Assembly: GCA_037501455.1 (NCBI GenBank) | Contig: CM074855.1 | Location: forward strand, 52,707,001-52,771,000 | Direction: 5' to 3' | Length of the DNA stretch: 64,000 nt | DNA from: Lantana camara | Lineage: Eukaryota; Streptophyta; Magnoliopsida; Lamiales; Verbenaceae | Part shown: piece after piece, positions 7,581 through 60,328 of the stretch | How positions within the stretch are numbered: the stretch's first letter is position 1 | Layout: the number at the start of each line of letters is the position of its first letter | Translations under genes and position numbers: made by a program | Notes under the pieces: generated by a model | Seen by the model: only the letters and a program-made list of their open reading frames with translations | Told to the model about the DNA's origin: nothing | Databases searched by the model: none

Positions 7581-7702
7581 GACACGGGGGTGTCACCTTC
7601 CTTAGCCAAACTGAGCCACGACCGTGGCTCAGTACAGACCTTACCAGAGGGTGTGACACGCCCGTGTCTCACTCTTATGAGTAAATGAGACACGGGGGTG
7701 TC
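7581..7702. repeat. mid-LTR palindrome cluster (array family)
   Basis: Four palindromes occur in 122 bp. 7581-7594 and 7689-7702 have arms GACAC/GTGTC. 7610-7633 is a perfect palindrome with 11-bp arms (core arms GAGCCACG/CGTGGCTC) around AC. 7655-7668 has arms GACACG/CGTGTC around CC. Equivalent clusters are at 14881-15002, 22175-22296 and 29469-29590. They lie about 1.83-1.95 kb from the LTR start. Other gypsy families in the window have clusters of the same design with different stems. Confidence 0.75.
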
Positions 7703-8964
7703 ACGGTACAGAACCAAAACCGTTCACAAGCTAAACCGGCAAAAACTGATCCCTTACAAACTCAAACCAAAAGCGTACCAAACCAACTCCAAATGCCCTG
7801 AAACTTAATATACAGCATATTTGTCATGTTATGAACATTTTTAATTTAGAGTGTAAATGCTAAATCACACGTTAAGACCATCGAATCCATGCAACAAAAC
7901 TGGGACCCCAAAATCGCACATATGAGCCCTAATGATTCTATCATGCCTTGATCAAGTACTTAGGGGTTGAATTTGGATCTGAAACTTTGGGTAATGCATG
8001 CTAACATACTAAACTACTAATATACATCATATATATGCAAAATGGTACAATTTAAAGCACATTAGAATGACCAACAAGTTACCAAACACAACAGCCACAA
8101 GTCTGTCATGAAGCATGCATAAAAACAGGCCATGTACTTCGGTTTTGAGGCTTCAAATGGATCCAAATACTTAAAACATGAATGCTAACATATAGAACAA
8201 TGAGTGCAAATCAACTCCATGCAATTGCACACGAAATGGAGACCATTTGATCAAGCAACAACACCAAATTTCACACAGCAGTTCGAAAAACAGGGGAATC
8301 AATTTGATCATCATGTTTGGAGCTCCATATCTCATAATTTCATAAAAGGGTCAAGAGATAAAATCCTCCTAATATCATATACTATCAGTTAGGAAAGAAA
8401 TGGGTCAAGAAACAAGTTCATATGATCATGTATAAGCAAGAAAATCAGCTATACAAGCAAACAAGATCATAAGAGCAAATTTCCCCAAAAACTCTATTCA
8501 TGCTCTTAGCCCAAACCCTAACCAAATCTGATCCAAATCATGAATTAAGGAGATGAAATCAAGTATCATAGAGTAGAGAAGACATAAATATTCATACCTT
8601 AAAGATTTGAGAGAGAAAGGTGGTGGTTTCAGCTCCAAAACCACAAAAATGGCCAAGGTTTTCTCTCTTCTCCTCTTCTTCTCTCTCTCGTTTCAGTTGC
8701 AGCTGGAAAGTGAGGGTTTGGTTCGGTTTTTTCAGCTTAAAGGGAAGAGAAAGGGGTTAATTCAAGGTACAAGAGTCATGGTTAAGGTATGGTTAGGTTA
8801 AGTTAAGTATAAAGGGTCCCACCATGAAGACTAGTCCACGAAAGGAGCTCTTCTTGCACGAGTTGTCCGTTACGGTTGGATTTCGGAGGTCTTAATGATT
8901 TCAAAAAGGTATGAGGCTTGTTCCATTGTCTCCGAATCGTCGATACGAAGGCAACGGAGGTGTC

Positions 8965-8984
8965 GGAATTCGAATCCGAATTCC
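8965..8984 (-). repeat. LTR stem-loop (array family)
   Basis: Perfect inverted repeat with arms GGAATTCG and CGAATTCC around AATC, about 550 nt from the LTR start. Copies lie at 16265-16284, 23559-23578 (outer pair broken by G to A) and 30853-30872. It is followed on the plus strand by CGAGCTCAAG, conserved in all families that have this hairpin. Confidence 0.6.
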
Positions 8985-9527
8985 CGAGCTCAAGATATCA
9001 CGTACGGAACCAAGGGTGCACTAATTGCTCGTTAGCCCCCGATTTGGTTCCACAACTCAAATTAAATCCGTTAACACGTCAAATGAATCCGAAAACGTAA
9101 ACCGAGCACATAGGCATATTCATAACACACATATTTACGATATACTAAATTTTCATACCAATCCGATATCATTACATATAAGAATGAAGCACAAATAAAA
9201 CACTCACGCGCAAGAACGAATTAACATTGTTATAAATGAATTACTAAAACTTAAATTCCATTTTAAATAAATTAAACAAACTAATAACAAGTTAAAATTA
9301 ATTAACGAAATTACCGAAACAGTTAAGGTAACGTGAAACCTCAATTAAGAAATTAAACACTAAATATCAAAGTAAAAGAAAATGAATTACTTAAAATAAC
9401 CATAGTCTGTAGTTTAAATCAAATACAAACACTTATAAACAATTAATCATGTAATTAAATAATTAAATTGCGCAATTTATGAACAAATACGCCACATTAT
9501 TTAAAACTGAAAAACTGGGGCGTTACA

Positions 9528-9545
9528 ATCTCTCCCCCTTAAAAA
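9528..9545 (-). other. polypurine tract of the array element
   Basis: Minus strand TTTTTAAGGGGGAGAGAT directly abuts the LTR start TGTAACG at 9527. Copies are at 16828-16845 and 24122-24139. It marks the plus-strand primer and hence the internal-to-3'-LTR junction. Confidence 0.8.
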
Positions 9546-9563
9546 GAATCCGTCCTCGGATTC
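9546..9563 (-). repeat. hairpin touching the polypurine tract (array family)
   Basis: Perfect 7-bp arms GAATCCG/CGGATTC with a 4-nt loop. Copies are at 16846-16863 and 24140-24157. GYP-D2 has the same hairpin with a shorter stem. TRGAG and GYP-H have a hairpin of unrelated sequence in the same place. Confidence 0.65.
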
Positions 9564-9586
9564 ACACACGCCTGAAAACAAACAAT

Positions 9587-9775
9587 GAGAGATTCCCCGT
9601 CTCTCACAAGCAACAAGGAGAGAGCCCCGTCTCTCGAGCAGCAATGAGAGAACCCCGTCTCTCCAACAACAATGAGAGAACCCCGTCTCTCCAACAACAA
9701 TGAGAGAACCCCGTCTCTCGCAAGCAAAGAGAGTACCCCGTCTCTCAAACAAAAATAAGAGAATCCCCGTCTCTT
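9587..9775 (-). repeat. hairpin array upstream of the polypurine tract, copy 1
   Basis: Seven units of about 27 bp, each an inverted repeat GAGAGA...TCTCTC around CCCCG (plus strand), separated by A/C-rich spacers such as CAACAACAAT. The last unit has A and T at the outer positions instead of G and C (AAGAGA...TCTCTT), so pairing is kept. Units 3 to 5 are almost identical, suggesting recent local duplication. The array lies 60-250 nt inside the 3' LTR. Confidence 0.75.
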
Positions 9776-12783: not shown

Positions 12784-15700
12784 TGTAGCACCCCGCACGT
12801 GAGGCCCCACATCCCCCGCACTATGGCTCAACACGAGTAACGAAACAGTAACTCCGCACCCGTATCAAACCATAGCGAACGGGAGACAAACATAAAAACT
12901 TTCCTAAGCCAGGCGGAGCTAGACCCTGCAATGAAAACCAATCCACAAAGTATAATGCATAACAAAGCCAAAGTTCAAACATACCAACCATAAGTAGAAT
13001 TTGGGCTCTTCAGGCCTCTTTTAAACAATAACAAAACCCAGTAAGACAATTCAATGACAGTTACATAAATATTCAAGTTCATGAACTGCAGAATCAATTT
13101 GAACAGAAATCCTAATACATGAATGAGTGCAGAGACTCTCCTAACCTAACTCGATCAACTTAAAACTCCAACACCTCCGCCTAGCTCGAAACTCCAAAGT
13201 CAATCCTGCACACTAAAAGATTGGGGAGGGAGAGGGTCAGTCTCTAGAAGACTGAGTGAGCAGGAGCGATATACATATATAAAAACATGCACATGCAAGT
13301 CATAAATTCCGAACAAGGTTTTTATTTGAAATTACTTCCCTAAAAAGGTAAGAGAATGATTAATCAATGCTCGGATTTTATGACTAAACATATTAAATTC
13401 ATTACATTCATAAATCATACATAAATATAAGGCTCGGCGAGTGAGCGTGCACAATCTCCAACCAAACTCCGATCGTGTACGACAAATATCATTAATATGT
13501 TGATTAGGTGTTCATGCGATATATCATAATACATGCAGACCATATATCATAAATCATATTCGTTTGGGCAATCCGTGTCCCGGCCTTCCCGTACGGTGCA
13601 TAATCATACATAAACATAACATAACATAAATCAGTTCCAACCTTCTTCCTCCGGGTGGTGGACGGGCTTGCAAGACCCAACCACCTCAATCATAGGCCAA
13701 TGGGGTTTCATGACTCCCCCAAGGGCACTCAGCTCCCATTCCCGGCTAAACCTCCTAGCGAGGGCCGGTATCACCGTAGTTTGGTTGGGACTAGTATATG
13801 GGATCCCCGTCAGCCCTTGCTTCCTCGGTTAGCCACATATACTAAGTCCCGGGGCCCGTACAATCAGAAATCAGAAATGTGTCTCGCCAAACAATCAATT
13901 CATAAGTACATATCATAATTCATAAATCATTTGAAAAGGGTTTATTCGATCAATACATACTATAAGAAATCATACCTTACCGTGTAATTCGACATATGCT
14001 ATATACGTACCTCTCCGTGTCATCCTATCCCGTAGCTAGCATGAAGACACACGGTTTGGAGCATAGCCTCATTACAAAACCATTTTTAAGCTTATATACG
14101 CTCATACATATAATTCAGAAGAATTTACTCGATAACTTCATTTGAAAACCATATATATATAATCATAAGGTTTTTGGCCAAAGCTTTTCACATAAGGGTT
14201 GTAGGGTTTGTTATATAGCTAAAACGAAAATTACCCTCACCTGAACCGTGATGAAACAAGGAACGGGTTAACAAGTGCTCGAAGGATCAAGATCTCTCCA
14301 CCCTGGAGATAAACTGTATCAAAGACAACATGACGTGATGGTGAGACTCGAGACTTCAATGAACCATATATGACGCACGACAATGAAGTGAATATGAAAT
14401 GAATGCATATATGATTATGTTATATCATAAAAACGTTCATGTGCACTCTTAATGCAATTAAGGCATATAACAAGCCATTCATTCAAATACTTTCAAGAAA
14501 TGAAGGTATCATACTCATTTATTTCATATCCTTCATAATTCTTAGCAATATCTTACAAAATCTTAGAACCATAATCATATTATACCTTCAAACATGTTTA
14601 CATTGAGTATGATACACAAAAAGGCAAAGAACATCACTTAAGACAAAAAAAGAATGCAAGAATGTACTTAATATTTCATATAGAAGCATTTAAGCCACGT
14701 CAAAGCAATTCCCTAAAAGCATACTTTAAACCTCATCCAAATATCATGAAATTGCACCATAATGCTCCCAACATATAGCAAAACAAGTTCATATTTCAAC
14801 ACAAAAGGAGATAAAATCATTAAGGAGGTGAAACGAATCAAATATCGAAAAGGAAGCAACACGGACTGCGCAGGGGAAGGGACACGGGGGTGTCACCTTC
14901 CTTAGCCAAACTGAGCCACGACCGTGGCTCAGTACAGACCTGACCAGAGGGTGTGACACGCCCGTGTCTCACTCTTATGAGTAAATGAGACACGGGGGTG
15001 TCACGGTACAGAACCAAAACCGTTCACAAGCTAAACCGGCAAAAACTGATCCCTTACAAACTCAAACCAAAAGCGTACCAAACCAACTCCAAATGCCCTG
15101 AAACTTAATATAAAGCATATTTGTCATGTTATGAACATTTTTAATTTAGAGTGTAAAGGCTAAATCACACGTTAAGACCATCGAATCCATGCAACAAAAC
15201 TGGGACGCCAAAATCGCACATATGAGCCCTAATGATTCTATCATGCCTTGATCAAGTACTTAGGGGTTGAATTTGGATCTGAAACTTTGGGTAATGCATG
15301 CTAACATACTAAACTACTAATATACATCATATATATGCAAAATGGTACAATTTAAAGCACATTAGAATGACCAACAAGTTACCAAACACAACAGCCACAA
15401 GTCTGTCATGAAGCATGCATAAAAACAGGCCATGTACTTCGGTTTTGAGGCTTCAAATGGATCCAAATACTTAAAACATGAATGCTAACATATAGAACAA
15501 TGAGTGCACATCAACTCCATGCAATTTCACACGAAATGGAGACCATTTGATCAAGCAACAACACCAAATTTCACACAGCAGTTCGAAAAACAGGGGAATC
15601 AATTTGATCATCAAGTTTGGAGCTCCATATCTCATAATTTCATAAAAGGGTCAAGAGATAAAATCCTCCTAATATCATATACTATCAGTTAGGAAAGAAA

Positions 15701-20077: not shown

Positions 20078-23000
20078 TGTAGCACCCCGCACGTGAGGCC
20101 CCACATCCCCCGCACTATGGCTCAACACGAGTAACGAAACAGTAACTCCGCACCCGTATCAAACCATAGCGAACGGGAGACAAACATAAAAACTTTCCTA
20201 AGCCAGGCGGAGCTAGACCCTGCAATGAAAACCAATCCACAAAGTATAATGCATAACAAAGCCAAAGTTCAAACATACCAACCATAAGTAGAATTTGGGC
20301 TCTTCAGGCCTCTTTTAAACAATAACAAAACCCAGTAAGACAATTCAATGACAGTTACATAAATATTCAAGTTCATGAACTACAGAATCAATTTGAACAG
20401 AAATCCTAATACATGAATGAGTGCAGAGACTCTCCTAACCTAACTCGATCAACTTAAAACTCCAACACCTCCGCCTAGCTCGAAACTCCAAAGTCAATCC
20501 TGCACACTAAAAGATTGGGGAGGGAGAGGGTCAGTCTCTAGAAGACTGAGTGAGCAGGAGCGATATACATATATAAAAACATGCACATGCAAGTCATAAA
20601 TTCCGAACAAGGTTTTTATTTGAAATTAGTTCCCTAAAAAGGCAAGAGAATGATTAATCAATGCTCGGATTTTATGACTAAACATATTAAATTCATTACA
20701 TTCATAAATCATACATAAATATAAGGCTCGGCGAGTGAGCGTGCACAATCTCCAACCAAACTCCGACCGTGTACGACAAATATCATTAATATGTTGATTA
20801 GGTGTTCATGCGATATATCATAATACATGCAGACCATATATCATAAATCATATTCGTTTGGGCAATCCGTGTCCCGGCCTTCCCGTACGGTGCATAATCA
20901 TACATAAACATAACATAACATAAATCAGTTCCAACCTTCTTCCTCCGGGTGGTGGACGGGCTTGTAAGACCCAACCACCTCAATCATAGGCCAATGGGGT
21001 TTCATGACTCCCCCAAGGGCACTCAGCTCCCATTCCCGGCTAAACCTCCTAGCGAGGGTCGGTATCACCGTAGTTTGGTTGGGACTAGTATATGGGATCC
21101 CCGTCAGCCCTTGCTTCCTCGGTTAGCCACATATACTAAGTCCCGGGGCCCGTACAATCGGAAATCAGAAATGTGTCTCGCCAAACAATCAATTCATAAG
21201 TACATATCATAATTCATAAATCATTTGAAAAGGGTTTATTCGATCAATACATACTATAAGAAATCATACCTTACCGTGTAATTCGACATATGCTATATAC
21301 GTACCTCTCCGTGTCATCCTATCCCGTAGCTAGCATGAAGACACACGGTTTGGAGCATAGCCTCATTACAAAACCATTTTTAAGCTTATATACGCTCATA
21401 CATATAATTCAGAAGAATTTACTCGATAACTTCATTTGAAAACCATATATATATAATCATAAGGTTTTTGGCCAAAGCTTTTCACATAAGGGTTGTAGGG
21501 TTTGTTATATAGCTAAAACGAAAATTACCCTCACCTGAACCGTGATGAAACAAGGAACGGGTTAACAAGTGCTCGAAGGATCAAGATCTCTCCACCCTGG
21601 AGATAAACTGTATCAAAGACAACATGACGTGATGGTGAGACTCGAGACTTCAATGAACCATATATGACGCACGGCAATGAAGTGAATATGAAATGAATGC
21701 ATATATGATTATGTTATATCATAAAAACGTTCATGTGCACTCTTAGTGCAATTAAGGCATATAACAAGCCATTCATTCAAATACTTTCAAGAAATGAAGG
21801 TATCATACTCATTTATTTCATATCCTTCATAATTCTTAGCAATATCTTACAAAATCTTAGAACCATAATCATATTATACCTTCAAACATGTTTACATTGA
21901 GTATGATACACAAAAAGGCAAAGAACATCACTTAAGACAACAAAAGAATGCAAGAATGTACTTAATATTTCATATAGAAGCATTTAAGCCACGTCAAAGC
22001 AATTCCCTAAAAGCATACTTTAAACCTCATCCAAATATCATGAAATTGCACCATAATGCTCCCAACATATAGCAAAACAAGTTCATAGTTCAACACGAAA
22101 GGAGATAAAATCATTAAGGAGGTGAAACGAATCAAATATCGAAAAGGAAGCAACACGGACTGCGCAGGGGAAGGGACACGGGGGTGTCACCTTCCTTAGC
22201 CAAACTGAGCCACGACCGTGGCTCAGTACAGACCTGACCAGAGGGTGTGACACGCCCGTGTCTCACTCTTATGAGTAAATGAGACACGGGGGTGTCACGG
22301 TACAGAACCAAAACCGTTCACAAGCTAAACCGGCAAAAACTGATCCCTTACAAACTCAAACCAAAAGCGTACCAAACCAACTCCAAATGCCCTGAAACTT
22401 AATATACAGCATATTTGTCATGTTATGAGCATTTTTAATTTAGAGTGTAAAGGCTAAATCACACGTTAAGACCATCGAATCCATGCAACAAAACTGGGAC
22501 GCCAAAATCGCACATATGAGCCCTAATGATTCTATCATGCCTTGATCAAGTACTTAGGGGTTGAATTTGGATCTGAAACTTTGGGTAATGCATGCTAACA
22601 TACTAAACTACTAATATAAATCATATATATGCAAAATGGTACAATTTAAAGCACATTAGAATGACCAACAAGTTACCAAACACAACAGCCACAAGTCTGT
22701 CATGAAGCATGCATAAAAACAGGCCATGTACTTCGGTTTTGAGGCTTCAAATGGATCCAAATACTTAAAACATGAATGCTAACATATAGAACAATGAGTG
22801 CACATCAACTCCATGCAATTGCACACGAAATGGAGACCATTTGATCAAGCAACAACACCAAATTTCACACAGCAGTTCGAAAAACAGGGGAATCAATTTG
22901 ATCATCAAGTTTGGAGCTCCATATCTCATAATTTCATAAAAGGGTCAAGAGATAAAATCCTCCTAATATCATATACTATCAGTTAGGAAAGAAATGGGTC

Positions 23001-27371: not shown

Positions 27372-30300
27372 TGTAGCACCCCGCACGTGAGGCCCCACAT
27401 CCCCCGTACTATGGCTCAACACGAGTAACGAAACAGTAACTCCGCACCCGTATCAAACCATAGCGAACGGGAGACAAACATAAAAACTTTCCTAAGCCAG
27501 GCGGAGCTAGACCCTGCAATGAAAACCAATCCACAAAGTATAATGCATAACAAAGCCAAAGTTCAAACATACCAACCATAAGTAGAATTTGGGCTCTTCA
27601 GGCCTCTTTTAAACAATAACAAAACCCAGTAAGACAATTCAATGACAGTTACATAAATATTCAAGTTCATGAACTGCAGAATCAATTTGAACAGAAATCC
27701 TAATACATGAATGAGTGCAGAGACTCTCCTAACCTAACTCGATCAACTTAAAACTCCAACACCTCCGCCTAGCTCGAAACTCCAAAGTCAATCCTGCACA
27801 CTAAAAGATTGGGGAGGGAGAGGGTCAGTCTCTAGAAGACTGAGTGAGCAGGAGCGATATACATATATAAAAACATGCACATGCAAGTCATAAATTCCGA
27901 ACAAGGTTTTTATTTGAAATTAGTTCCCTAAAAAGGCAAGAGAATGATTAATCAATGCTCGGATTTTATGACTAAACATATTAAATTCATTACATTCATA
28001 AATCATACATAAATATAAGGCTCGGCGAGTGAGCGTGCACAATCTCCAACCAAACTCCGACCGTGTACGACAAATATCATTAATATGTTGATTAGGTGTT
28101 CATGCGATATATCATAATACATGCAGACCATATATCATAAATCATATTCGTTTGGGCAATCCGTGTCCCGGCCTTCCCGCACGGTGCATAATCATACATA
28201 AACATAACATAACATAAATCAGTTCCAACCTTCTTCCTCCGGGTGGTGGACGGGCTTGCAAGACCCGACCACCTCAATCATAGGCCAATGGGGTTTCATG
28301 ACTCCCCCAAGGGCACTCAGCTCCCATTCCCCGCTAAATCTCCTAGCGAGGGCCGGTATCACCGTAGTTTGGTTGGGACTAGTATATGGGATCCCCGTCA
28401 GCCCTTGCTTCCTCGGTTAGCCACATATACTAAGTCCCCGGGCCCGTACAATCAGAAATCAGAAATGTGTCTCGCCAAACAATCAATTCATAAGTACATA
28501 TCATAATTCATAAATCATTTGAAAAGGGTTTATTCGATCAATACATACTATAAGAAATCATACCTTACCGTGTAATTCGGCATATGCTATATACGTACCT
28601 CTCCGTGTCATCCTATCCCGTAGCTAGCATGAAGACACACGGTTTGGAGCATAGCCTCATTACAAAACCATTTTTAAGCTTATATACGCTCATACATATA
28701 ATTCAGAAGAATTTACTCGATAACTTCATTTGAAAACCATATATATATAATCATAAGGTTTTTGGCCAAAGCTTTTCACATAAGGGTTGTAGGGTTTGTT
28801 ATATAGCTAAAACGAAAATTACCCTCACCTGAACCGTGATGAAACAAGGAACGGGTTAACAAGTGCTCGAAGGATCAAGATCTCTCCACCCTGGAGATAA
28901 ACTGTATCAAAGACAACATGACGTGATGGTGAGACTCGAGACTTCAATGAACCATATATGACGCACGACAATGAAGTGAATATGAAATGAATGCATATAT
29001 GATTATGTTATATCATAAAAACGTTCATGTGCACTCTTAATGCAATTAAGGCATATAACAAGCCATTCATTCAAATACTTTCAAGAAATGAAGGTATCAT
29101 ACTCATTTATTTCATATCCTTCATAATTCTTAGCAATATCTTACAAAATCTTAGAACCATAATCATATTATACCTTCAAACATGTTTACATTGAGTATGA
29201 TACACAAAAAGGCAAAGAACATCACTTAAGACATCAAAAGAATGCAAGAATGTACTTAATATTTCATATAGAAGCATTTAAGCCACGTCAAAGCAATTCC
29301 CTAAAAGCATACTTTAAACCTCATCCAAATATCATGAAATTGCACCATAATTCTCCCAACATATAGCAAAACAAGTTCATAGTTCAACACGAAAGGAGAT
29401 AAAATCATTAAGGAGGTGAAACGAATCAAATATCGAAAAGGAAGCAACACGGACTGCGCAGGGGAAGGGACACGGGGGTGTCACCTTCCTTAGCCAAACT
29501 GAGCCACGACCGTGGCTCAGTACAGACCTGACCAGAGGGTGTGACACGCCCGTGTCTCACTCTTATGAGTAAATGAGACACGGGGGTGTCACGGTACAGA
29601 ACCAAAACCGTTCACAAGCTAAACCTGCAAAAACTGATCCCTTACAAACTCAAACCAAAAGCGTACCAAACCAACTCCAAATGCCCTGAAACTTAATATA
29701 CAGCATATTTATCATGTTATGAAAATTTTTAATTTAGAGTGTAAAGGCTAAATCACACGTTAAGACCATCGAATCCATGCAACAAAACTGGGACGCCAAA
29801 ATCGCACATATGAGCCCTAATGATTCTATCATGCCTTGATCAAGTACTTAGGGGTTGAATTTGGATCTGAAACTTTGGGTAATGCATGCTAACATACTAA
29901 ACTACTAATATACATCATATATATGCAAAATGGTACAATTTAAAGCACATTAGAATGACCAACAAGTTACCAAACACAACAGCCACAAGTCTGTCATGAA
30001 GCATGCATAAAAACAGGCCATGTACTTCGGTTTTGAGGCTTCAAATGGATCCAAATACTTAAAAAATGAATGCTAACATATAGAACAATGAGTGTACATC
30101 AACTCCATGCAATTTCACACGAAATGGAGACCGTTTGATCAAGCAACAACACCAAATTTCACACAGCAGTTCGAAAAACAGGGGAATCAATTTGATCATC
30201 AAGTTTGGAGCTCCATATCTCATAATTTCATAAAAGGGTCAAGAGATAAAATCCTCCTAATATCATATACTATCAGTTAGGAAAGAAATGGGTCAAGAAA

Positions 30301-33426: not shown

Positions 33427-35926
33427 TGTAACGCCCCGAATTTCATTAACTAAATCTTTACGTTTATTATAATTTTATAAAGTATACTTTACCAAACTTT
33501 CATGAAATTGCATGAATTTATATTGAAGTTAGAATTTATTTCATAACTTGAAAGTCTTTATTTCATGAAACAAATACCGAGAGTGCTTCAAATTACGGAA
33601 TTATCCCTAATTGAACATTTCTTTAAATTTTAGGGACTTAATTGCATAGGTTTCAAAGAGCTAATTGGCAATCTTTTAAAATCACATACACTTGAATGCA
33701 TAACTTGAATTCTTGGAGGATCAAATTGCAATTTGGGACATTCCACACTTTTCAAAAATGGGATGTATCGGTATAAGGCTTCCATATGCTTCCTTGATCA
33801 TTTTATCATCAAAATTCACCAACATCATCATCATTTCTCTCTCGGTATTAAGAAGAAAAGGGAAAGAAGTGATTTTCATCCATATCATCAAGAATTTCAA
33901 GAATTAATCCAAGTTTGGGAAGCTTGATCATCATCTTCATCCATCTTCTCCATTCCTTTCATTGCCAAGGTTGGTTGTGCATGAGTGGATGAGTCTTGAT
34001 CATATATGTATGAGCTAGGGTTTAGGAATTAGATGCTAGATGGAGTATTTGTTGATTGAAGCATGATTTCATGATTATAACATGATTTGTGGCCTGAATT
34101 CTTCGAAATTTTAGTTGAATGATCAAGTTTGACCTTGAGCATGAAACCTTGATTCTTGATGATTTCCCATGATTTATGTGTTTAAATGGAGTGTTATTGA
34201 TTGTTGAATAAATATGCATGCATATTTCCAGAAATTTATGCCTTTTATTGATCAAACTTGAGTTGTTGGAAGCTTTGTTATTATCCCGTAGCCATGCTCT
34301 GTTTCCTCTGTTTCTTTCCAGTTGCAGAAACTGGGAACGACCGTTCCCAGCCTCAAGGCATGGTGGGAACGGGCGTTCCCACTCTTTTAAACCAAGAATA
34401 GGCGGCCGAGCATGGGAACGACCGTTCCCATTTTGGCCTTGGCGCCGGAAGGGCCGTTCCCAACTAAAAGGCGCCCTTTTATTATAAAATCGTGATCGCG
34501 TCTTGAAGGGCCACGGGAACGGCCCTTCCCATTTACAAAGGAAAGACGGAACGACTGTTCCCGTGCGTCTGACAGAACAAAATATTCTGCATAAAATTAC
34601 AATTTTAGCCCCTCGATCCAACGACTTCTTTGACCCCGAATTGCTATTATATGATCCAATATGTACTGAAACAAGATGTTTTCATGCCACATTGTATTTT
34701 ACTCGACATCTCGTTGCATTTCCACCGTTCGTCATATTTGGTCCATTTTAGAGTCAAGTCTCACGTTTACATGTATTCCTTGCACAGACTACCTTCTCGT
34801 GACGTGGAGCAGGGGCCGTAGGCCGTATCTTGACTTGCATTTTGTCGGTAAATGTGAGGTTTAGTTATTAATTATTTAGAACCATATAACCTTTATATGA
34901 ATTTCGGCCAAATTACATATATATATATATCTTTATAATCGTTTTCCAAGAACAAGGGATTTAATAACTATCTGTGTATCGTGTTACAAGTCGTGTTTGG
35001 CGAATTATCGTGTATCGTGTATCGTGTTTATGGGCCCGAGGGTGAGTGTTTGAGCCAACCGGGAAAGTATAGGGCCGATGGGTAACTCACACACCTCTCT
35101 CAAACAGTGGGGATGCCCCCTGAATCCACCAAGAGGTTTGGTGGAGGAAGGAGTCCCGTACGTGGGAGTCATGTTCCCGACGTGCAACGTGATATCGAGG
35201 GTGGTTCGGGCCTTGCAAACCCACCACCATTGGAGAAAGGAGAATATCATGTTATTGATCGTGTGCACTATAATGACTCGTGTGATAACCTAATTAAATG
35301 GAAATATAATTCTTGTTCACTATCAAGGTTGGTTGGAGATCGTGCACTCCCCTCGCCAGGGCCACTGATTGTTATAATAAACGTGATTATCGTGTTAAAC
35401 TTGATAGTTGTAATCTCGGGCGAGTTTATGTTATTCTTGCATTTATATTATTGTAGTTACAAAACCTTACCCGAGGTTATAACTTGCATGTTATTTGCAC
35501 TTATATATATCTATGCCCCTCACTCGGTCTTCACAGACTGACGCCTCCACCTTTCAGGTTTTTGTTCGTGGCGTGCTAGGCGGGAGTCAGGTCGTGTCGT
35601 TTATCCAGCTAAGTCTAGCATAGTTTTCTTTCCATGTATTAGCATTTCAGAGTATCATGTTAATAGTTCTGAGCACTTATACGTGAATGTTATTTGGGAG
35701 ATGATAATGTATTGATATGATGATATAATGTTATTATGCTTCCGCTTATGAATTTCATGTTTCGGATTTATTTCATTTGAGGGTCTAGTCCCTCCTAGCT
35801 AGCTTGTCGTGTATTGCATTGTCACCCGTTCGCTATAGGTTGGTTCATGTACGGATTGGCCGTTTCTTATGTGGATTGATCTATAATGCGGGGGTGTGGT
35901 ACCTCCACGTGTTAAGGGGTGCTACA
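33427..35926 (+). mobile_element. TRGAG 5' LTR
   Basis: 2500 bp, TGTAACGCCCCG...GGTGCTACA. It holds a palindrome cluster at 34331-34561, a run of ATCGTGT words at about 34975-35028, and the conserved 3' module (CCGCTTATGA, CACCCGTTCGCTATAGG, GCGGGGGTGTGG). It has about 200 bp around 35035-35245 (TGGGCCCGAGGGTGAG to ATCATG) that the 3' LTR lacks. Confidence 0.85.
34331..34561. repeat. mid-LTR palindrome cluster (TRGAG 5' LTR)
   Basis: Six palindromes on the stem GGGAACG/CGTTCCC. Units 1-3 (34331-34350, 34363-34382, 34412-34431) are perfect with 9-bp arms and a 2-nt centre (AC, GG, AC). Their outermost bases differ but always pair: CT..AG, GT..AC, AT..AT. Units 4-6 (about 34447-34460, 34515-34530, 34548-34561) are shorter or imperfect. 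They lie 0.9-1.1 kb from the LTR start. Confidence 0.8.
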
Positions 35927-35933
35927 TCTAAGG

Positions 35934-37624: not shown

Positions 37625-37661
37625 ATGGCTTGTGCACAAGCATCATTTGAAACTTGACAGT

Positions 37662-37704: not shown

Positions 37705-39989
37705 TGTAACGCCCCGAATTTCATTAACTAAATCCTTACGTTTATTATAATTTTATAAACTATACTTTACCAAACTTTCATGAAATTCAATAAATTTATA
37801 TTGAAGTTAGAATTTATTTCATAACTTGAAAGTATTTATTTCGTGAAACAAATACTGAGAGTGCTTCAAATTACGGAATTATCCCTAATTGAACATTTCT
37901 TTAAATTTTAGGGACTTAATTGCATAGGTTTCAAAGAGCTAATTGGCAATCTTTTAAAATCACATACACTTGAATGCATAACTTGAATTCTTGGAGGATC
38001 AAATTGCAATTTGGGACATTCCACACTTTTCAAAAATGGGATGTATCGGTATAAGGCTTCCATATGCTTCCTTGATCATTTTATCATCAAAATTCACCAA
38101 CATCCTCATCCTTTCTCTCTCGGTATTAAAAAGAAAAGGGAAAGAAGTGATTTTCATCCATATCATCAAGAATTTCAAGAATTAATCCAAGTTTGGGAAG
38201 CTTGATCATCATCTTCATCCATCTTCTTCATTCCTTTCATTGCCAAGGTTGGTTGTGCATGAGTGGATGAGTCTTGATCATATATGTATGAGCTAGGGTT
38301 TAGGAATTAGATGCTAGATGGTGTACTTGTTGATTGAAGCACGATTTGATGATTATAACATGATTTGTGGCCTGAATTCTTGGAAATTTTAGTTGAATGA
38401 TCAAGTTTGAGCTTGAGCATGAAACCTTGATTCTTGATGATTTCTCGTGATTTACGTGTTCAAATGGAGTGTTATTGCTTGTTAAATAAATATGCATGTA
38501 TATTTCTAGAAATTTTTGCCTTTTATTGATCAAACTTGAGTTGTTGGAAGCTTTGTTATTATCCCGTAGCCATGCTCTCTGTTTCCTCTGTTTCTTCCCA
38601 ATTGCAGAAACTGGGAACGACCGTTCCCAGCCTCAAGGCATGGTGGGAACGGGCGTTCCCACTCTTTTAAACCATGAATAGGCGGCCGAGCATGGGAACG
38701 GCCGTTCCCATTTTGGCCTTGGTGCCGGAAGGGCCGTTCCCAGCTAAAAGGCGCGCTTTTATTATAAAATCGTGACCACGTCTTGAAGGGCCAAGGGAAG
38801 ACGGAACGGCCGTTCCCGTGCGTCTGACAGAACAAAATATTCTGCATAAAATTACAATTTTACTCCCTCGATCCAACGACTTCTTTGACCCCGAATTGCT
38901 ATTATATGATCCAATATGTACTGAAACAAGATGTTTTCATGCCACATTGTATTTTACTCGACATCTCGTTGCATTTTCGCAGTTCGTCATAGTTGGTCCA
39001 TTTTAGAGTCAAGTCTCACGTATACATGTATTCCTTGCATAGACTACCTTCTCGTGACGTGGAGCAGGGGCTGTAGGCCGTGTGTTGACTTGTATTTTGT
39101 CGGTAAAGGTGAGGTTTAGTTATTAATTATCTAGAACCATATAACCTTTATATGAATTTCGGCCAAATTACATATATATATATATCTTTATAATCGTTTT
39201 CCAAGAACAAGGGATTTAATAACTATCTGTGTATCGTGTTACAAGTCGTGTTCGGCCAATTATCGTGTATCGTGTATCGTGTTTATGGGCCTATAATGAC
39301 TCGTGTGATAACGTGTTATTGATCGTGTGCACTATAATGACTCGTGTGATAACCTAATTAAATGGAAATATAATTCTTGTTCACTATCAAGGTTGGTTGG
39401 AGATCGTGCACACCCCTCGCCAGGGCCACTGATTGTTATAACAAACGTGATTATCGTGTTAAACTTGATAGTTGTAATCTCGGGCGAGTTTATGTTATTC
39501 TTGCATTTATATTATTGTAGTTACAAAACCTTACCCGAGGTTATAACTTGCATGTTATTTGCGCTTATATATATCTATGCCCCTCACTCGGTCTTCACAG
39601 ACTGACGCCTCCACCTTTCAGGTTTTTGTTCGTGGCGTGCTAGGCGGGAGTCAGGTCGTGTCGTTTATCCAGTTGAGTCTAGCATAGTTTTCTTTCCATG
39701 TATTAGCATTTCAGAGTATCATGTTAATAGTTCTGAGCACTTATACGTGAATGTTATTTGGGAGATGATAATGTATTGATATGATGATATAATGTTATTA
39801 TGCTTCCGCTTATGAGTTTCAGGTTTTAGATTTATTTCATTTGAGGGTCTAGTCCCGCCTAGCTAGCTTGTCGTGTATTGCATTGTCACCCGTTCGCTAT
39901 AGGTTGGTTCATGTACGGATTGGCCGTTTCGTATGTGGATTGATCTATGGTGCGGGGTGTGGTACCTCCACATGTTAAGGGGTGCTACA
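37705..39989 (+). mobile_element. TRGAG 3' LTR
   Basis: 2285 bp, starting TGTAACGCCCCG and ending GGTGCTACA before the ATAAG duplication. Compared with the 5' LTR it lacks about 190 bp near 39290 and one palindrome unit near 38790. Elsewhere it differs by scattered substitutions, so the insertion is fairly young but not the newest in the window. Confidence 0.85.
38611..38820. repeat. mid-LTR palindrome cluster (TRGAG 3' LTR)
   Basis: Same stem as in the 5' LTR. The first unit (38611-38630) is identical. The last (core 38803-38816) is GGAACGGCCGTTCC, a perfect palindrome where the 5' LTR has the imperfect GGAACGACTGTTCC. One unit is deleted. Confidence 0.75.
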
Positions 39990-42747: not shown

Positions 42748-42841
42748 AATCTCCCCGCCCGGGGAGATTTTCAGGCCAAAAGTCCCCGCCCGGGGACTTC
42801 CATGCCGAGGACCTTCTGTCAAGGGCTCCCCGGCTGGGGAG
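42748..42841. repeat. mid-LTR palindrome cluster (GYP-D)
   Basis: 42748-42769 is perfect, with arms AATCTCCCCG/CGGGGAGATT around CC. 42780-42799 is perfect, with arms AAGTCCCCG/CGGGGACTT around CC. 42826-42841 has arms CTCCCC/GGGGAG. The first two differ in the outer stem, but with both partners changed. GYP-D2 has a different stem at the homologous place. Confidence 0.8.
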
Positions 42842-43858: not shown

Positions 43859-46290
43859 CGAGCTCAAGATATTAAATACGGAACCAAGGGTGCGCTAAGT
43901 GCTCGTTAGCCCCCGACTTGAATTCCAAAATTCAAATTAAATCCGAAACACATGCAAATGAATCCGAAAATACGAAACGAACATATATTCATATAAAAGA
44001 CACGTATAAGTCCAACATATTAAATTTGCACGGAATTTCGGTATTAATTCAAATAGAAACGAAGCACGTAAACGTGGCTCATAAACAATGTAACAATAAA
44101 ATTCATAACATTACAAATAATATAAAAATTAAATACGTATGTAATTTATAAATACATGCATGCACTAATTAAAATATAACATGCATGCAACAATTATGAT
44201 TTAACAAATTCACTAATTAAATTCAATTAGCGCATTAATATATTAATATTATATAAATTAATATTAATAAAACTTAAAATGTAATAATTAACATTATTAA
44301 CATTAAATATATTTAACAAAATAAAATTAAATATATAAAACACATATAAATAATTATTTCGCGCAATTTAGTAAACTCATACGTCATGTTGTATAACTAA
44401 AAAAAACTGGGGCGTTACATGTCCCGAATATCACAAAGTACCATTAATATTTCATACATTTAATGCATAACTCAGTCAATTACAATATGCGTGTAGTGTG
44501 ACTCGGAGTAGACCAAAAGACTTGACAAACTCAAACTCCCGCCCAACACTCCAAAACTTGTAAGAACTGAAAACAAAGCCAGGTTCAGTCAATAGGTGAC
44601 TGGTGGGTATAAAACAGGGCTTAATAATATAATGTTACAAGAATTTAAACACTCACGCATGCAAGCTATAATCCCGTGCGAGGTTTTTGAAATATTTTCC
44701 CAACTGGGTGAAAATGAAATAAAACAACACTCGGGATTACAACAATCAATATCATTCATTCATTCATGAGGTCAATATGTGAGCCCGGCGAGTGGACGAA
44801 TTCTCCAACCTCCACCTCGTGTGTGCATTTATTCATTTATTCGTTCATTAATGATCACACAATCATTCATTCATTCCCAATCATTAGTTCCTTCATTCAT
44901 TCATTCATTTATACATTCGTGCATTCATTCAATCAATACACTTACACCTTCTTCCTCCGGGTGGTGGACGGGTTAGCAAGACCCGACCACCTCAATCATT
45001 GACCAAAGGGGTGTCATTAGTTCCCCAAAGGCGCTCAGCCCCCTTCCCTCGCTAATATCCTAGCGAGTTCCGAAAACTGTAATTTGGTTGGGACTAGCAC
45101 ATAGGATCACCGTCGGCCCTTGCCTCCCCGGATCGCCATATGTACCAAGCCACGGGCCCCCATATGTGCAATCAATCAATACTCGCCAAAACATTAGGTA
45201 ACGTATTCATAAAATAAAAAGGGGTTCTAACAATCAAAATTATAGACTCCTTGAAAACGACTCAATATAAATATATACTTACTTTGGCTTAAAGTATACA
45301 CATTGAGGGATATTGGTCATTATTTAGCTAGTAGAAGAGAAACCCACCTGTTACACCTTACCGACAATACGAAGAAGAAAAGAGGGTTGAGGAACACCTA
45401 TGAACCCGACATCTGGAGCAAACTATTCAAAGATAACATTATGTGGTCGTGAGACTCAAGACTCCAAATGAACCATATAAGATGCACGACAATGCAATGA
45501 ATGTGATATGGTATGCATAAGAGAATAAATCATGTCTTGGAGATGCATTAAGGCACATAGTCAATCACTTCATTCTTTCTTGGAGCGTTCATAATCATTC
45601 AAGTTCATATCTCCCATGTATCATATCAAATCGATCCATAAATTCCGAACAATGATCATAACGCATATTTCAACAAGTACACACTTCATATGAATTATAA
45701 AAGAAGGATAAAGTAGGCAATTAGGGTTCACTCTCCAAGCATCAAGGCATTCATGCGCACTAAGGAGCAATGAAGGCATGTGAATTCATATCTTGCACAT
45801 AACACGCCAAACGGATCCATAAATTTAACAAATGAGCATAACACACCATATAACATGTTAGGGTTATAATTGGGGTGGGAAATTACAAGAAAAACGGAAA
45901 AGAAGCATAAGAAGAAACTCCGAACACGATCTTGCAAAATCTGACAGTTTTCCACAATGCACAAGCCGCCGTGAAATGAGGATATCTGAAGTTTGAGAAG
46001 TCCAAATTGGGTTTTGTTTGCTGGAGATGAAACTAGGAAAATAGGGCTTTCCAAAGACATATGGCTCGAATCATAGTTCAAAGTGAGGTGAAAATGGCGT
46101 AGGCTCTAAGTTGGACAATGTAGAATTCCGGCGAAGTGGCGACACAATTTTTCCAAGGTCATAACTGACAAACAACAAGGACTTTTAAGGTGATTCGAAT
46201 TGGAGGATGTTATAGACTTCAATAGGTTTCCGTGGGTTCAAAAATCAGGTCAATCGGAGTTTTTTAGCATAGGAAAACGGTCTGTACCAG

Positions 46291-46306
46291 GTAACGGGCG
46301 TTACCC
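46291..46306. repeat. mid-LTR palindrome (GYP-E)
   Basis: Perfect arms GGTAACG/CGTTACC around GG, about 1.25 kb from the LTR start. A decayed second copy (AGTAATGGGCGTTAATGG) lies at about 46326-46343, so this family has a two-member, partly eroded cluster. Confidence 0.65.
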
Positions 46307-47167
46307 AGTTTTGTGCAGGAAGGCAGTAATGGGCGTTAATGGCAACAACGGCCTTCTTCCGAAATTGGTCCTGTTCACCCCTACATCCCTTCTCAAAACA
46401 TAGCACCAACAACTACCACACATTGAGGAAACATAAATCTTCAAACCAAAACAAATTAAGCTCAAAATCCACACGAAACCAAGCCACAATCATGCATATG
46501 TTGAGAGGCAAAAGAATGAGATCCAACTCTTACATTCACTCAAGGTCCAACAATGGAAACTTCATGATATCTTAACCACCACTCAAAATAAGTTCAAAGA
46601 ATCATATATGGGTGTCTTAGGATCATATATCATGCTTCATACTAAAAGAATTCTCAAGATCTCAAGTAAGAATCATCAAAATTTCACAAACCCTTACTAT
46701 TCATTCAATATATCAAACCTGACTCAAATCATGGTGAAATTATACAAAATTGGACTTAAAAGAACCACAAGGAGATGAACAACATAAAAATAAGCTTACC
46801 TTTCAAACTGGAGAAGAAATGGATGTGAGATGAGCCCAAAATTTCAAATGGGGCAAAAGGGTTCTTCTTTCTCTCCTTTCTTCCTTCGCTTCTTTTCTTC
46901 AGCTGAAAATATCTTGTTTTGGGGGGTTGGAATCTCGGTTTGAGCTGATAAGGGTGAGAGAGAGAGAGTGTGCAAGTGGGTTTAGGGTCAAAGGTTAGGT
47001 CATAGTTGTGTTAATTTAGGTCCGTAGCTTAGGTAGAGTCATGAATGGTCATTTTAAATTCGAGTTGCTCGTTTCGGTTGAAATTCAGGGATCCAAATGG
47101 TCTTAGAAAAATATGAGGCTTAACCCATTGTCTCCAAATCGTCGATGTGAATCCAATGGAGGTGACA

Positions 47168-54429: not shown

Positions 54430-56068
54430 TGTAACACCCCGGTTTTTCCATTTAATCATTATGTGTTAATTTATAATTTTCAAGACATTAGATTCTTAAT
54501 ATTTTCATGATTTTTATGAAATTAATTGCTAATGTGACTAAATGCTCTTACATGTCTTTATTCGATCATTCCTTATATGTATTGACTTAATTGCATTAAT
54601 ATGAATTGGAGTTAAGTGAACACATTCCTTAAGATAGAGTTTGATTGCATGAACTTAAATAGCTTAGGGACTAAGTTGCAAAATGTGTTGAGTCATGCAT
54701 ATATTTGGAAGACTTTGATAAATATCTCATTCATCTCTCTCTCATTCCATTTTATTTCATTTCATCAAAAGTCCCACACACACTCACACACTAAATACCG
54801 ATTTTTACACCAAGAAAAGGGCAACAAGGATTTCATCAAATTTCAAGTTTAATTAAAGGAATTGTGAAGCTAGGATCATCATCATATCATCCTTTCTCAT
54901 CTTCTTCTTTTCTTTCAAGGTATATGTATGTATATGTGATGAATATATTGAGTTATATATGATGTAGGGTTTGAGAATTTGGATATGGTTTCTTGTTTAA
55001 TTGTGATTAGAAGCATGACTTGGATCTCTATACTTGAAAACTTGCATGAATTCTTGAATAATATTAAGGTGGGATGTTATATATATATATGGGGTTTGGT
55101 TGAGGAATTCTTGATGATCTATGCTTGTTTCTTTGGATTAAATGTGGCCTAAATGACTTACATGAATCATATACATGTTATATGTTAGTTTTGTGTTGAA
55201 TTGTTGCCTTGGTTTGATGTGTGATTGATTTGGGAGCCAAATTTCGTGCCTGCCCTGTTTTCCCTTCATTATGTTGCTGGAGAGTGATCCACGAGCGTGG
55301 ATTTTGACCCACGGCCGTGGATTTTCGTCCAGAAACTTGGGAGTTTCGGTAAGATAATCCACGGGCGTGGATTTTAGTGCATGGAAAAATCCACGGCCGT
55401 GGATCTCCCTCTGTTTTCAGTCTGAGTTGTTTTGTTCCGTTTACCCCTCAAACAAACTCCGATTGACCTGATTCTTGAACCGACGGAAAGATCTTGAAGT
55501 CTAGAACAACCTTCAATTAGAATAATCTCATTATCGTTTCCCATTTGTGAGATATTATCAATTTTTTTTGGTGTCACTGCTTTACCGACAAGCTGCAATT
55601 ATTCAACTTCAAGTTTACGCCATTTTCTCCTCTCTTTGAACTAGAAAACGAGCCATATATCATTGGAAAGGTATTTGTGTCTAGTTTCATTCCCAAAAAA
55701 CAAAACTCAATTCCAACTTCTAGAACTCAAGATATTCCAGTTTTCCCTCAGCATGTGCATTTCCTAAAATTGTCCGTTTTTACCAAACTTCACCAAAACC
55801 TCTCTTATTGCATTCCTTTCACTTCCCTGGCTCCCGTACATGACTTATCTGATATATATACTTATTTTATTTATAATTATGCTCCTATTTGACATTTCTT
55901 AATTGTGTTTGCATGACATATTGATCATGACTTTGTCGTGCGTCGTAAATGGTTCACGCGAGTCGTGTCTCATGATCACTTGTCCCTTTTTACACAGATT
56001 GTCTTTCCATTGATGAGGCGCAAGCTCCATAGTTGTATCCTTGATTAATTGTCGACACGGGTGAGATT
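54430..56068 (+). mobile_element. GYP-H 3' LTR, 5' part
   Basis: Starts TGTAACACCCCGG after a polypurine tract, so it is a 3' LTR on the plus strand. The 1.64 kb present ends where the COP-3 LTR begins. The conserved 3' module of these LTRs (CCCGTTCGCTATGG, GTGCGGGG) is not reached, so the end was displaced or deleted by COP-3. It contains a palindrome cluster (55287-55404). No coding sequence is seen. Confidence 0.65.
55287..55404. repeat. mid-LTR palindrome cluster (GYP-H)
   Basis: Four units on the stem ATCCACG/CGTGGAT: 55287-55302 (centre AG), 55309-55320 (CCACGGCCGTGG, perfect), 55356-55373 (9 paired positions including AATT ends, centre GG) and 55389-55404 (centre GC... as ATCCACGGCCGTGGAT, perfect). 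They lie 0.86-0.97 kb from the LTR start, as in TRGAG. Confidence 0.8.
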
Positions 56069-58024: not shown

Positions 58025-58341
58025 ATCTCCCACTTGCCCGTCAAATCCATTCTAAAGCTATTCTAAGTCCAAGCTTCTCGACTAAGGAGATTAGTAAGTG
58101 GATCTGCCACGTTCTCTGTTGATGTGACCCTCTCAATTTGCACATCTCCTCTTTTGATAATATCACGGATTAAGTGATACTTCCTCATAATGTGCTTGGT
58201 CCGTTGGTGAGATCTTGGTTCTCTTGCTTATGCAACCGCCCCAGTGTTGTCACAAAACACAGAAATGGGGTCTTTCATGCTAGGAACAACATTCAACTCT
58301 TGAATGAAGTTTCCAATCCAAACACTTTCCTTAGCTGTATC
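58025..58341 (-). pseudogene. COP-3 pol: C-terminal part of Ty1/copia RNase H
   Basis: RNase H removes the RNA strand during reverse transcription. On the minus strand from 58341 the reading goes TAKESVWIGNFIQ, VVPSMKDPI, CDNTGAVA, then a TAA where copia RNase H normally has Gln, then AREPRSHQRTKHI, RVTSTENVADPL and a terminal TAG near 58065. CDNTGAVA includes a catalytic Asp, and ENVADPLT is the usual end of copia pol. Apart from the single stop the frame is open, so decay is mild compared with COP-2. GYP-D2 inserted at 58342; the upstream pol should lie beyond it, outside the window. Confidence 0.8.
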
Positions 58342-59963
58342 TGTAACACCCGAGCGCAAGGTATCACATCCCCCGCACCGAAACCCGACCCGAATATGAA
58401 ATGGACGATCCATACCCGAACCAAGTCACAGCGAACGGGGATAAACACACCCTCTATGCTAGGCAGGACTAACCCTTGAACCATAAATTGAAGATAAATA
58501 ATAAAGCGGAAGCAATAAACGGACATACATCAAGTATATAAGTAATGAGCATCACAGTTTCAAAATTTAAGTCATTTACACCCTCAAATGCCATCAAGGC
58601 TCAAAACAGGTACGCTCCAATATAGTTCATTTACAATGATCAAAAGTGCAACAGCTGTGTGTGAGACCCAAAATACAAGGGTTAAAAGCAAATGCAAGAC
58701 CTATGACTCGAAATCCCGCCTAGCTCCCTCGACACCTGCACAACACAACTGAAAGCCAAACAGGGTTCAGTCCAAAAGGGACTGGTGGGTATAAAAACTG
58801 GGCATAAGTATAATATATGACAGTAATTAAACATTCACATGCAAGCTATAATCCCAAATGAGGTTTTGAAGAATTTCCCAAGTGGGCGAATAGTAATCAT
58901 CAAAAGGGATTATAACAATTCATTAACGTTAGGTCATTATTGGCCCGGCGAGTGGGCGTTCATTATCTCCAACCAACACCTCGTGTAATTCATTAACATT
59001 CATTCATTCTTTCTTTTCATGCATTTCAATCTTTCGTGTGCATTCAATAACATTCCACCTTCTTCCTCCGGGTTGGTGGCGGGTTTGCAAAGCCCATCCA
59101 CCCATTCACTGACCGAAAGGGGAACATGACTCCCCAGATGGCACTCAGCGTCCATTCCTCCCTAACTCCTAACGAGGTCCGGTTACGCCGTTCAGTAGTG
59201 GGACTAGTGTGAGGGTTTCCCGTCTGCCAATGCCTCCTCGGTTCCCCACTCAGACCAAGCCCCTGGGCCCCATTCATTGTGAACATTCATTCATTCTCGC
59301 CAAAACATTTGGTAGGTTCATGAAAGATAGGCTTTACGTTGAAATCATTTACTCTAGAAAACGACTCTATATACATATAATAGTTTGTAGCTGAAATCTT
59401 TACACGTTGAGGTATATAGGGTCATTTATCTAATAGTAGAGAAACCCACCTTAAACGGCAACAAGGAGAATACACGAGCCTCACAGACCGGCCTCGTCTC
59501 CAACGGACTCAAAATCTGTGCAAGAAAGGTGAAGTGAGACTCAATATGACCATATAAGACGCTCGACAATGTAATGATCATGATATGAATACATAAGAGA
59601 TACGATTATGTCATGAAAATGTTCATGTGCACTATTAATACATTTAAATCATATAATCATATAATCAAGTCATTCACTTTCATTCGAATTCATAATTCTA
59701 CATTTTCAATCAAATTAATTCAAGAATTTCAAATAAAATCATAGCACAATTTATATCACATATAAAAATTAGAACATAAATAATTAAACTCATTCAATCG
59801 CATTCACAATTAGAAGTTAAACAATTAAATTTTGGAAATTAAATAAAACATGAAATAGGTAACATTTAAATTCTAATATTCAATTAAATCAAATAACATT
59901 TAATATTTAATAAACATATATAAATATATAATTAAATATAATATACATATACAATATTATATG

Positions 59964-59999
<36 letters not shown>

Positions 60000-60204
60000 G
60001 CATACATAGCCCATACATGCAAAACCCAATTCATGAAATTTTTCCATGCAATTAAAACACATGCATGCAATAGTTTAGGTATAATTATATACATATATGC
60101 ATGCAAACCCATGCATTAACAATCAACATTTCAAGCAGGAAAGAAAAAGGAAACCAACTGCAGCAGTTCACGGCAACATACAGAACATGCATGGGAAGTT
60201 ACAA

Positions 60205-60328
60205 GGTGACACCCCCCGTGTCACCCCCAAAGAACAAACAGAGACACCCCCGTGTCTCGGTACAAAAATTCAGACCAAATATACACCCCCGTTTCACGCT
60301 GGAACAAACAAGAACGACACACCCGTGT
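60205..60328. repeat. mid-LTR palindrome cluster (GYP-D2)
   Basis: 60205-60225 has arms GGTGACAC/GTGTCACC and a C5 centre. 60241-60258 has arms GAGACAC/GTGTCTC and a C4 centre. 60315-60328 has arms GACAC/GTGTC. A decayed unit lies at about 60282-60299. The first two share the inner GACAC/GTGTC stem but differ in the outer bases with pairing kept. The stem equals that of the array family, not that of its closer relative GYP-D. Confidence 0.8.

Follow-up and report, generated by a model that had tools for sequence, protein, structure and literature searches.

In several element families, arrays of palindromic repeats are known to serve as cis-regulatory regions, according to the consulted part of PMC10760457. 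The nearest described case is that of the Sireviruses, Ty1/copia elements whose long terminal repeats (LTRs) carry repeated motifs (RMs, or RM boxes) with an ungapped CGG-CCG core (Bousios et al. 2010, PMC2829016). In the part of that paper available to us, there are at least 8 RMs per element, with 3-14 in the 3' LTR; they are located upstream of the TATA box, forming CpG islands, and also upstream of env, and they are considered Sirevirus-specific, being absent from the classic retrotransposons compared, all Ty1/copia. In VANDAL DNA transposons, arrays of VANC motifs expand through tandem duplication, and a protein encoded by the element binds them, as far as the accessible part of PMC5735166 describes them; the word palindrome is absent from its text. 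Here, we describe arrays of short palindromes in the LTRs of gypsy elements of Lantana camara, starting from a stretch of 64,000 nucleotides (contig CM074855.1, positions 52,707,001 to 52,771,000, assembly GCA_037501455.1; hereafter the window). Gypsy LTR elements are nested in the window: four LTRs in tandem (A), a TRGAG element (array type T), and the LTRs D, E, H, and D2. TRGAG resembles the TR-GAG non-autonomous LTR retrotransposons in consisting of two LTRs and a gag-only interior.

A first-pass annotation of the window had named no described function for such clusters, which overlooked the close parallel in Sireviruses, for which regulatory roles have been proposed in the portion of PMC2829016 consulted. 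Like the RMs as described there, the gypsy arrays are LTR clusters of short palindromes, with one sequence per element, a common CG-containing core, and element-specific outer arms. The Sirevirus core equals the CG-GC-CG centre of 55 out of 119 palindromic units (dyads) collected from 40 LTR pieces, while the other 64 have the centres CGACCG (spacer AC, 29), CGGGCG (GG, 25), CGCCCG (CC, 7), or CGGTCG (GT, 3). Furthermore, going by the available RM description, our arrays are carried by gypsy rather than Copia elements (as judged from the domain order of one element, L133), contain mostly 4-6 units per LTR (at most 6 were found, counted per LTR) versus at least 8 per element, and lie downstream of a splice-donor-like site (in 16 of 20 LTRs), RMs being placed upstream of a TATA box. 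Their units are spaced in pairs, and no pair spacing is mentioned for RMs in the accessible part of PMC2829016. With VANC motifs, as partly described in PMC5735166, they share the organization in dense family-specific clusters in non-coding parts, and the motifs of one array change together; however, the VANC binder is element-encoded, whereas the single gag-pol interior read here (L133, its start lying outside the stretch) carries no extra sense gene. Titles and abstract openings in the open-licence literature yielded no description of gypsy/Tekay palindrome arrays. Integration into palindromes (PMC6911290, in the part consulted) concerns insertion sites, not arrays within LTRs, and Retand elements (PMC11963269, likewise in part), checked for extra open reading frames (ORFs) and repeats, are a different group by LTR size. 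The arrays thus form a separate gypsy version of palindromic motif arrays, with paired spacing, for which the Sirevirus RMs are the nearest known counterpart.

Palindrome clusters occupy a regular position in the LTRs

Palindromes were present at each of the places where the first-pass annotation had located them, and they were denser than in shuffled sequence. With a stem of at least 6, at least 4 G/C in the arm, and a loop of at most 6, the window contained 62 inverted repeats; 30 dinucleotide shuffles had 9.2 on average (3-19). A scan of the 64 kb for CG-NN-CG dyads, allowing at most 1 mismatch among the 5 outer pairs, returned 25, where 1.0 was expected (maximum of 5 in 300 shuffles); 22 of these were found inside the mid-LTR clusters, counting four A copies and both TRGAG LTRs, and 3 elsewhere. 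CG cores were extended to dyads in 25 of 109 cases, and the next-best core, TA, in 60 of 573. A lone CG-NN-CG dyad with one mismatch was also seen late in each TRGAG LTR (35412-35427 and 39476-39491).

The A array contains 4 dyads with arms GACAC / GAGCCACG, spaced 34-40-34 bp, at LTR +1.82-1.95 kb. It is found on the minus strand in all four tandem copies: at 7581..7702 (in LTR 9527>5484), 14881..15002 (16827>12784), 22175..22296 (24121>20078), and 29469..29590 (31418>27372). The array in the TRGAG 5' LTR (34331..34561, plus strand; +0.91-1.14 kb) has 6 dyads of the form GGGAACG-NN-CGTTCCC in three pairs, with spacings of 32, 49, 32, 69, and 32 bp and imperfect units 4-6; that of the 3' LTR (38611..38817, plus strand) lacks a counterpart of the 5' unit at 34516-34531. 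D carries 3 dyads (CTCCCCG / GTCCCCG) in the window copy (42748..42841, minus strand; +1.58-1.67 kb), and 14 out of 20 of its relatives have 4 units, spaced 31, 42-45, and 31-32 bp. The E array (46290..46340, minus strand; LTR start 47549; +1.24 kb) consists of a GGTAACG dyad with a decayed second unit 35 bp away, the H array (55287..55404, plus strand; LTR start 54430; +0.86-0.97 kb) of 4 ATCCACG dyads spaced 20-50-32 bp, and the D2 array (60205..60330, minus strand; LTR 61987>58342; +1.66-1.78 kb) of 4 GACAC-type dyads spaced 34-39-34.5 bp. The clusters as first annotated therefore stand, with amendments to their make-up: the second, decayed unit of E, the four units of A, two of which are without a symmetric inner CG pair, and the four units of D2.

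The clusters extend far beyond the window. The genome (1.27 Gb, 378 contigs) was searched with a pattern joining the polypurine tract (PPT) to the LTR start, which matched at 3,469 places (control: 0). The first 100 LTR starts listed, all on contig C1, served as the sampling frame, and every fifth was taken to give 20 pieces covering LTR+450..2050. These contained 81 palindromes versus 6.95 expected (maximum of 11 in 20 shuffles), and CG dyads were present in 19 of the 20, with the first dyad of each piece located at LTR+837..1093. Another 20 pieces drawn from those 100 (13 picked for rarer start variants, 7 ordinary) gave 59 versus 3.7 (maximum 7). Together, the 40 pieces yielded the 119 dyads mentioned above, against 1.1 in shuffles (maximum 4), and 118 of them lay at LTR+820..1260. 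At least 2 units of one half-site were present in 31 pieces, and the CG-NN-CG scan found no dyad in 7 of the 40; three couples of pieces (L093/L103, L101/L118, and L111/L123) are near-identical and hence non-independent. The TRGAG type, GGGAACGNNCGTTCCC, had 37,901 exact sites in the genome, compared with a random expectation of about 1 and with 0 for its reverse, a pattern matched in symmetry and composition. For A and D2, results rest on the window copies.

Nine array types have a common centre

Across the window and the sampled LTRs, nine half-site types were distinguished: GGGAACG, ATCCACG, GGTAACG, GGTCGCG, (A)GTACCCG, ATCCCG, (G)TGACACG, GAGCCACG, and CTCCCCG/GTCCCCG. The types GGTCGCG, (A)GTACCCG, ATCCCG, and GTGACACG were found outside the window. 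Together with the spacer tally, to which the first H unit in the window adds an AG, these half-sites show that the centre CG-NN-CG is common and that the outer arms are the variable part. The clusters are also relatively rich in CpG: across 19 LTRs, the observed/expected ratio is 0.91 inside them and 0.70 in the remainder of the piece. The earlier proposal that the form is kept while the sequence changes is thus borne out between families. A CG-NN-CG centre was likewise found in most families, as had been claimed, but not in D2, where none of the 4 units passes the scan.

Conservation concerns the sequence of the arms

Sixteen T-type LTRs carry the six dyads in register, unit 4 being present in 15 of them. 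Across the 98 pairs of these LTRs with flank identity of at most 0.80, the arms were 0.980 identical, as opposed to 0.699 between units, 0.708 upstream, and 0.794 downstream. The same was seen for D (161 pairs at or below 0.85: arms 0.936, versus 0.788 between units, 0.784 upstream, and 0.657 downstream) and for three distant H rows (0.993 versus 0.873, 0.747, and 0.847, respectively). Invariant columns made up 71 of 83 in the T-type arms and 211 of 573 elsewhere (Mann-Whitney p 3e-18, for rows that share descent), and CpG positions were conserved at 0.975 in T arms versus 0.873 at 18 other CpG column pairs. Arms that are 98% identical while the flanks have fallen to about 70-80% indicate that selection acts on sequence.

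Selection on pairing, which the first-pass annotation had offered as one explanation, would leave compensatory changes. Among the 16 T-type LTRs, 32 H rows, and 21 D rows, however, changes in the arms were one-sided, save for two cells in H unit 2; no compensatory change was found in D, and none of the changes in T was compensated (units 1-5 were used for this pair count, unit 6 being out of register and excluded). At stem positions 8 and 9 of T, changes occurred on one side only. Some mismatches are themselves conserved: G.G and C.C in T unit 4, each in 15 out of 16 LTRs, and C.A in H unit 2, in 30 of the 31 rows with letters (T-A in one). The outermost TRGAG pair had been described as always complementary in units 1-3; this is true of the window copy, but over the 16 T-type LTRs the pair is C-G in 14, G-C in 10 with G.T in 6, and A-T in 14, without a compensated change. 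RNA pairing as the main selected trait was rejected on the basis of the one-sided changes and conserved mismatches, and the conserved trait is, to judge by these alignments, the sequence of the arms.

Two comparisons show mirrored arm differences. Where unit 3 of A aligns with its orthologue, unit 2 of D2, an A-T pair corresponds to a C-G pair, and in two aligned units of L095 and L112 the spacers GC and GG are kept while the arms differ in a mirrored way. Such differences would fit a change in dimer specificity as well as they fit pairing. In T-type units 1-5, an A follows the right arm in 13-16 of the 16 LTRs, and the corresponding T on the left is less constant, suggesting that T-type sites may be oriented.

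Units are arranged in pairs

In T-type LTRs, dyad centres lie 32, 47-63, 31-32, 66-71, and 32 bp apart. A similar alternation of short and long spacings was seen in T-b (32-48-32-38-32), GTGACACG (represented by L104; 34-38-34-50-34), GGTCGCG (represented by L096; 33-75-33), GTACCCG (32-43-31), ATCCCG (34-42-33-42-33), and D (31-45-32), in addition to the window arrays A, D2, E, and H described above. Over these 11 arrays, 24 of the 39 spacings were 31-35 bp, and 9 of the 10 arrays with at least 3 units followed a short-long-short order, H being the departure. The chance of this alternation is 4e-7 if arrays are independent, and serves as a guide only. The count excludes weak matches (L093 at 13 bp, L095 at 428, L114 at 289, and E at 17), and L122 (33, 74, 43) as well as the incomplete L131 and L114 are outside the 39 spacings.

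The short spacing was also found in larger samples. Of the E copies, 26 out of 30 have a second unit at 34 or 35 bp, with none found in the other 4, and among the first 51 listed sites of the GGGAACGNNCGTTCCC type, 15 of the 33 spacings below 200 were exactly 32. In all 16 T-type LTRs, a stretch of 16 nt separates units 5 and 6, although it is only 0.707 identical; the stretches between pairs vary in length (31-47 and 50-55 nt). Three turns of B-DNA span about 31.5 bp. Two dimers spaced 31-35 bp apart would thus occupy the same or nearly the same face of the helix, an arrangement in favour of a dimer of dimers bound to DNA.

Arrays are exchanged between related LTRs

L131 (GGTCGCG) and L093 (GTGACACG) share a 433-bp match of 94%, placed downstream of the array by alignment. 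Their arrays are nonetheless unrelated, intervening sequence included, and the array of L131 is common to L096. Similarly, L104 and L112 differ in type, with identities of 88% downstream and 78% upstream, and in the window the arrays of D and D2 differ beside an adjoining match of 81%. Related LTRs with unrelated arrays imply that whole arrays can move as cassettes, and in these named pairs the alignments show them to have been exchanged.

Elements carrying the arrays

One interior, L133 (C1:32644300-32649060), lies beside the T-type LTR L106 and contains a single open frame of 1513 aa, which stops about 30 bp before the PPT. The frame has matches to gag, protease, reverse transcriptase, RNase H, integrase, and a chromodomain, in a gypsy order. 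The Chromo match (24.2 bits) is just below the curated cut-off of 25.1, and that of rve (26.1) is below 32.6; for L133 only, we regard the predicted product as a gypsy gag-pol with a C-terminal chromodomain, a chromovirus feature. We use the label Tekay-like for this group on the assumption that the LTR start TGTAACRCCCC, the iMet-type primer-binding site (PBS), and the chromodomain are diagnostic. Since the gag-pol frame beside a T-type LTR is uninterrupted, the group may have been recently active. No extra sense gene was found in this interior, the PBS side of which is outside the stretch, making a host factor the simplest guess for a binding protein; two antisense frames (121 and 114 aa) had no Pfam match.

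TRGAG (33427-39989, plus strand) is flanked by the target-site duplication (TSD) ATAAG at 33422-33426 and past 39989. Its 5' LTR (33427..35926) is followed by the PBS TGGTATCAGAGC at 35934, and its 3' LTR spans 37705..39989. A gag frame (PF03732; 36335..37255, plus strand) is the only frame of at least 150 aa between the LTRs, as expected of a TR-GAG element, and its product is 67% identical to the L133 gag over 278 aligned positions. A protein search with gag returned 1 uninformative match, and no relative was found when viral contigs were queried with it. The LTR-end + PBS pattern matched 4 stretches of viral contigs, which have neither an LTR start nor an LTR-like repeat and were judged chance matches. 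A weak RVT_3 match was the single result from five ORF pieces lying upstream of copies of the H and T LTRs.

Other features of the window

The window LTRs begin with TGTAACRCCCC, exactly or with one mismatch, and the LTR groups are related along parts of their length; T1 and T2 gave no match to D at the threshold applied. The PBS word TGGTATCAGAGC occurs exactly after the TRGAG 5' LTR, after the LTR ending at 41248, and in 2 of the 3 interiors of the tandem array, the third having one mismatch. This tandem array (5484-31418; TSD TCTCA) has units of about 7.3 kb and consists of four LTRs with three interiors, within a single TSD. On C1, LTR starts 7.3-7.5 kb apart in the same orientation were seen repeatedly among the starts listed, suggesting that tandem LTR forms may be common.

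A putative further LTR, starting with TGTAACATCCC, is split by the tandem array and TRGAG into 4979-5483, 31419-33426, and 39990-41248; at about LTR+1.0 kb it has a GC-rich stretch with GGACCG-G-CGGTCC. Another palindrome, upstream in the LTR, reads GGAATTC..GAATTCC in A (8965-8984) and GGAACTC..GAGTTCC in D (43839-43858) and D2 (61298-61317), with a near-match in E (about 47163-47192), so that a T-A to C-G change is found on both sides between the families. A second hairpin array, of 28-bp repeats with units like GAGAGA-CGGGG-TTCTCTC, precedes the polypurine tract in four families (9576-9774, 16876-17074, 24170-24368, 37462-37623, 54319-54424, and 62062-62193). Outside the arrays, inverted repeats containing CACGTG form two clusters, at 4370-4466 and 56806-56877.

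Discussion

We consider it rather likely that these clusters are operator-like LTR arrays of Tekay-like chromoviruses, serving as platforms for a candidate dimeric protein. A typical array comprises two or three pairs of 16-20 bp dyads with centres 31-35 bp apart within a pair, and each pair would hold two protein dimers on one helix face. The centre CG-(GC, AC or GG)-CG is common to the types, and the outer five or so bases of each arm set the type; each type would have its own reader within one protein family. Recruitment of the protein to the LTR, acting at the DNA level, would activate the element or protect it from silencing. Types can change through exchange of whole arrays between LTRs. 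A dyad-binding protein had been among the roles first proposed for the palindromes, and the conserved arm sequence, the common centre, and the paired spacing support such a candidate. We infer DNA binding by a dimer of dimers, with an activating or anti-silencing role and a factor of host origin.

Several observations weigh against this interpretation. The spacing was noticed post hoc, with unit thresholds (3-4 mismatches of 14) chosen by the analyst, and common ancestry is possible for some arrays (T with T-b; A with D2 and GTGACACG). One H pair is spaced 20 bp. In the two T pairs other than units 5-6, the inner stretch is 16 nt in 16 out of 16 LTRs and 15-16 nt, with identities of 0.917 and 0.880; being fairly conserved, these stretches may owe part of their constant length to common descent. 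The full centre is lost from the GACAC-type units of D2 in the window copy. Among 32 H rows, mostly close copies, arms (0.942) were no better conserved than the sequence between units (0.952), with changes mainly due to CpG decay, as expected of dead copies. Pairing just outside the common seven-base arms exceeds expectation (28/65 versus 0.277, p 0.005; 49/112 versus 0.308, p 0.003), though the excess is weak. Finally, the L133 stretch is without a PBS, so that the interior was seen without its start, and both predicted folding and possible transcription of the arrays, discussed next, would allow them to act as RNA.

The alternative that survives best, though we hold it to be unlikely, is an array for RNA dimerisation or packaging. 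The palindromes would lie in the unspliced leader, past a splice donor, and form hairpins with GNNC loops that pair type-specifically with the same array of another genomic RNA. In 16 out of 20 LTRs, an AAG|GT splice-donor-like site was found upstream of the array, versus 2.2 in shuffles, for a motif relaxed post hoc after the strict AAGGTWWG gave 0/20. Arrays may therefore be transcribed and could act as RNA. Predicted folding is strong for four of the six clusters (z of -8.4 for A, -7.7 for H, -6.1 for T, and -4.2 for D), but little or no better than shuffles for E (-0.3) and D2 (-1.8). A near-constant centre with variable stems, mostly common to the units of an array, would suit this alternative, and retroviral packaging signals with palindromic loops offer a parallel. 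Opposed to it are the lack of compensatory drift at about 70% flank identity, the mismatches conserved in T unit 4 and H unit 2, and the fixed spacing of 31-35 bp in unrelated arrays, which is unexpected for hairpins. The array may sit inside a transcribed intron, where an enhancer-like or an RNA role is possible, the latter being less likely.

Improbable, in our view, is that the arrays give rise to hairpin RNA that supplies small-RNA silencing and are a liability kept for a regulatory need. This has been described for the palindrome clusters of maize Sireviruses (Bousios 2016, as related in the consulted part of PMC10760457), but a liability leaves the 98% arm conservation and the pair spacing unexplained, and would be a side effect at most. 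A mutational origin, with fold-back template switching during reverse transcription perfecting and extending palindromes so that complementarity arises without selection, is hardly credible: it could account for the weak, unit-specific pairing just outside the common arms, but the identical arms of separate units within an array already speak against it as the whole account, and the common centre, fixed position, and pair spacing are left unexplained.

Returning to protein-bound arrays, the type of the non-autonomous TRGAG is also that of the LTR beside a complete gag-pol interior, and both would thus answer to the same factor. We tentatively raise the possibility of a recognition code, in which the arrays are read by one host family of dimeric proteins that differ in arm specificity, types switch by array swaps, and a parasite such as TRGAG retains its helper's type. 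With their CGG-CCG-like centre, Sireviruses and chromoviruses might then have converged, or might both rely on one protein family.

Among Copia elements, arrays of palindromic motifs have been reported as a trait of Sireviruses; they are also present in gypsy LTRs of the chromovirus type. One type alone accounts for tens of thousands of dyads, and the paired geometry of the arrays points to a dimer of dimers bound to DNA. They offer ready baits for a factor on which these retrotransposons may depend, and their system of types allows us to ask how non-autonomous elements follow their helpers.

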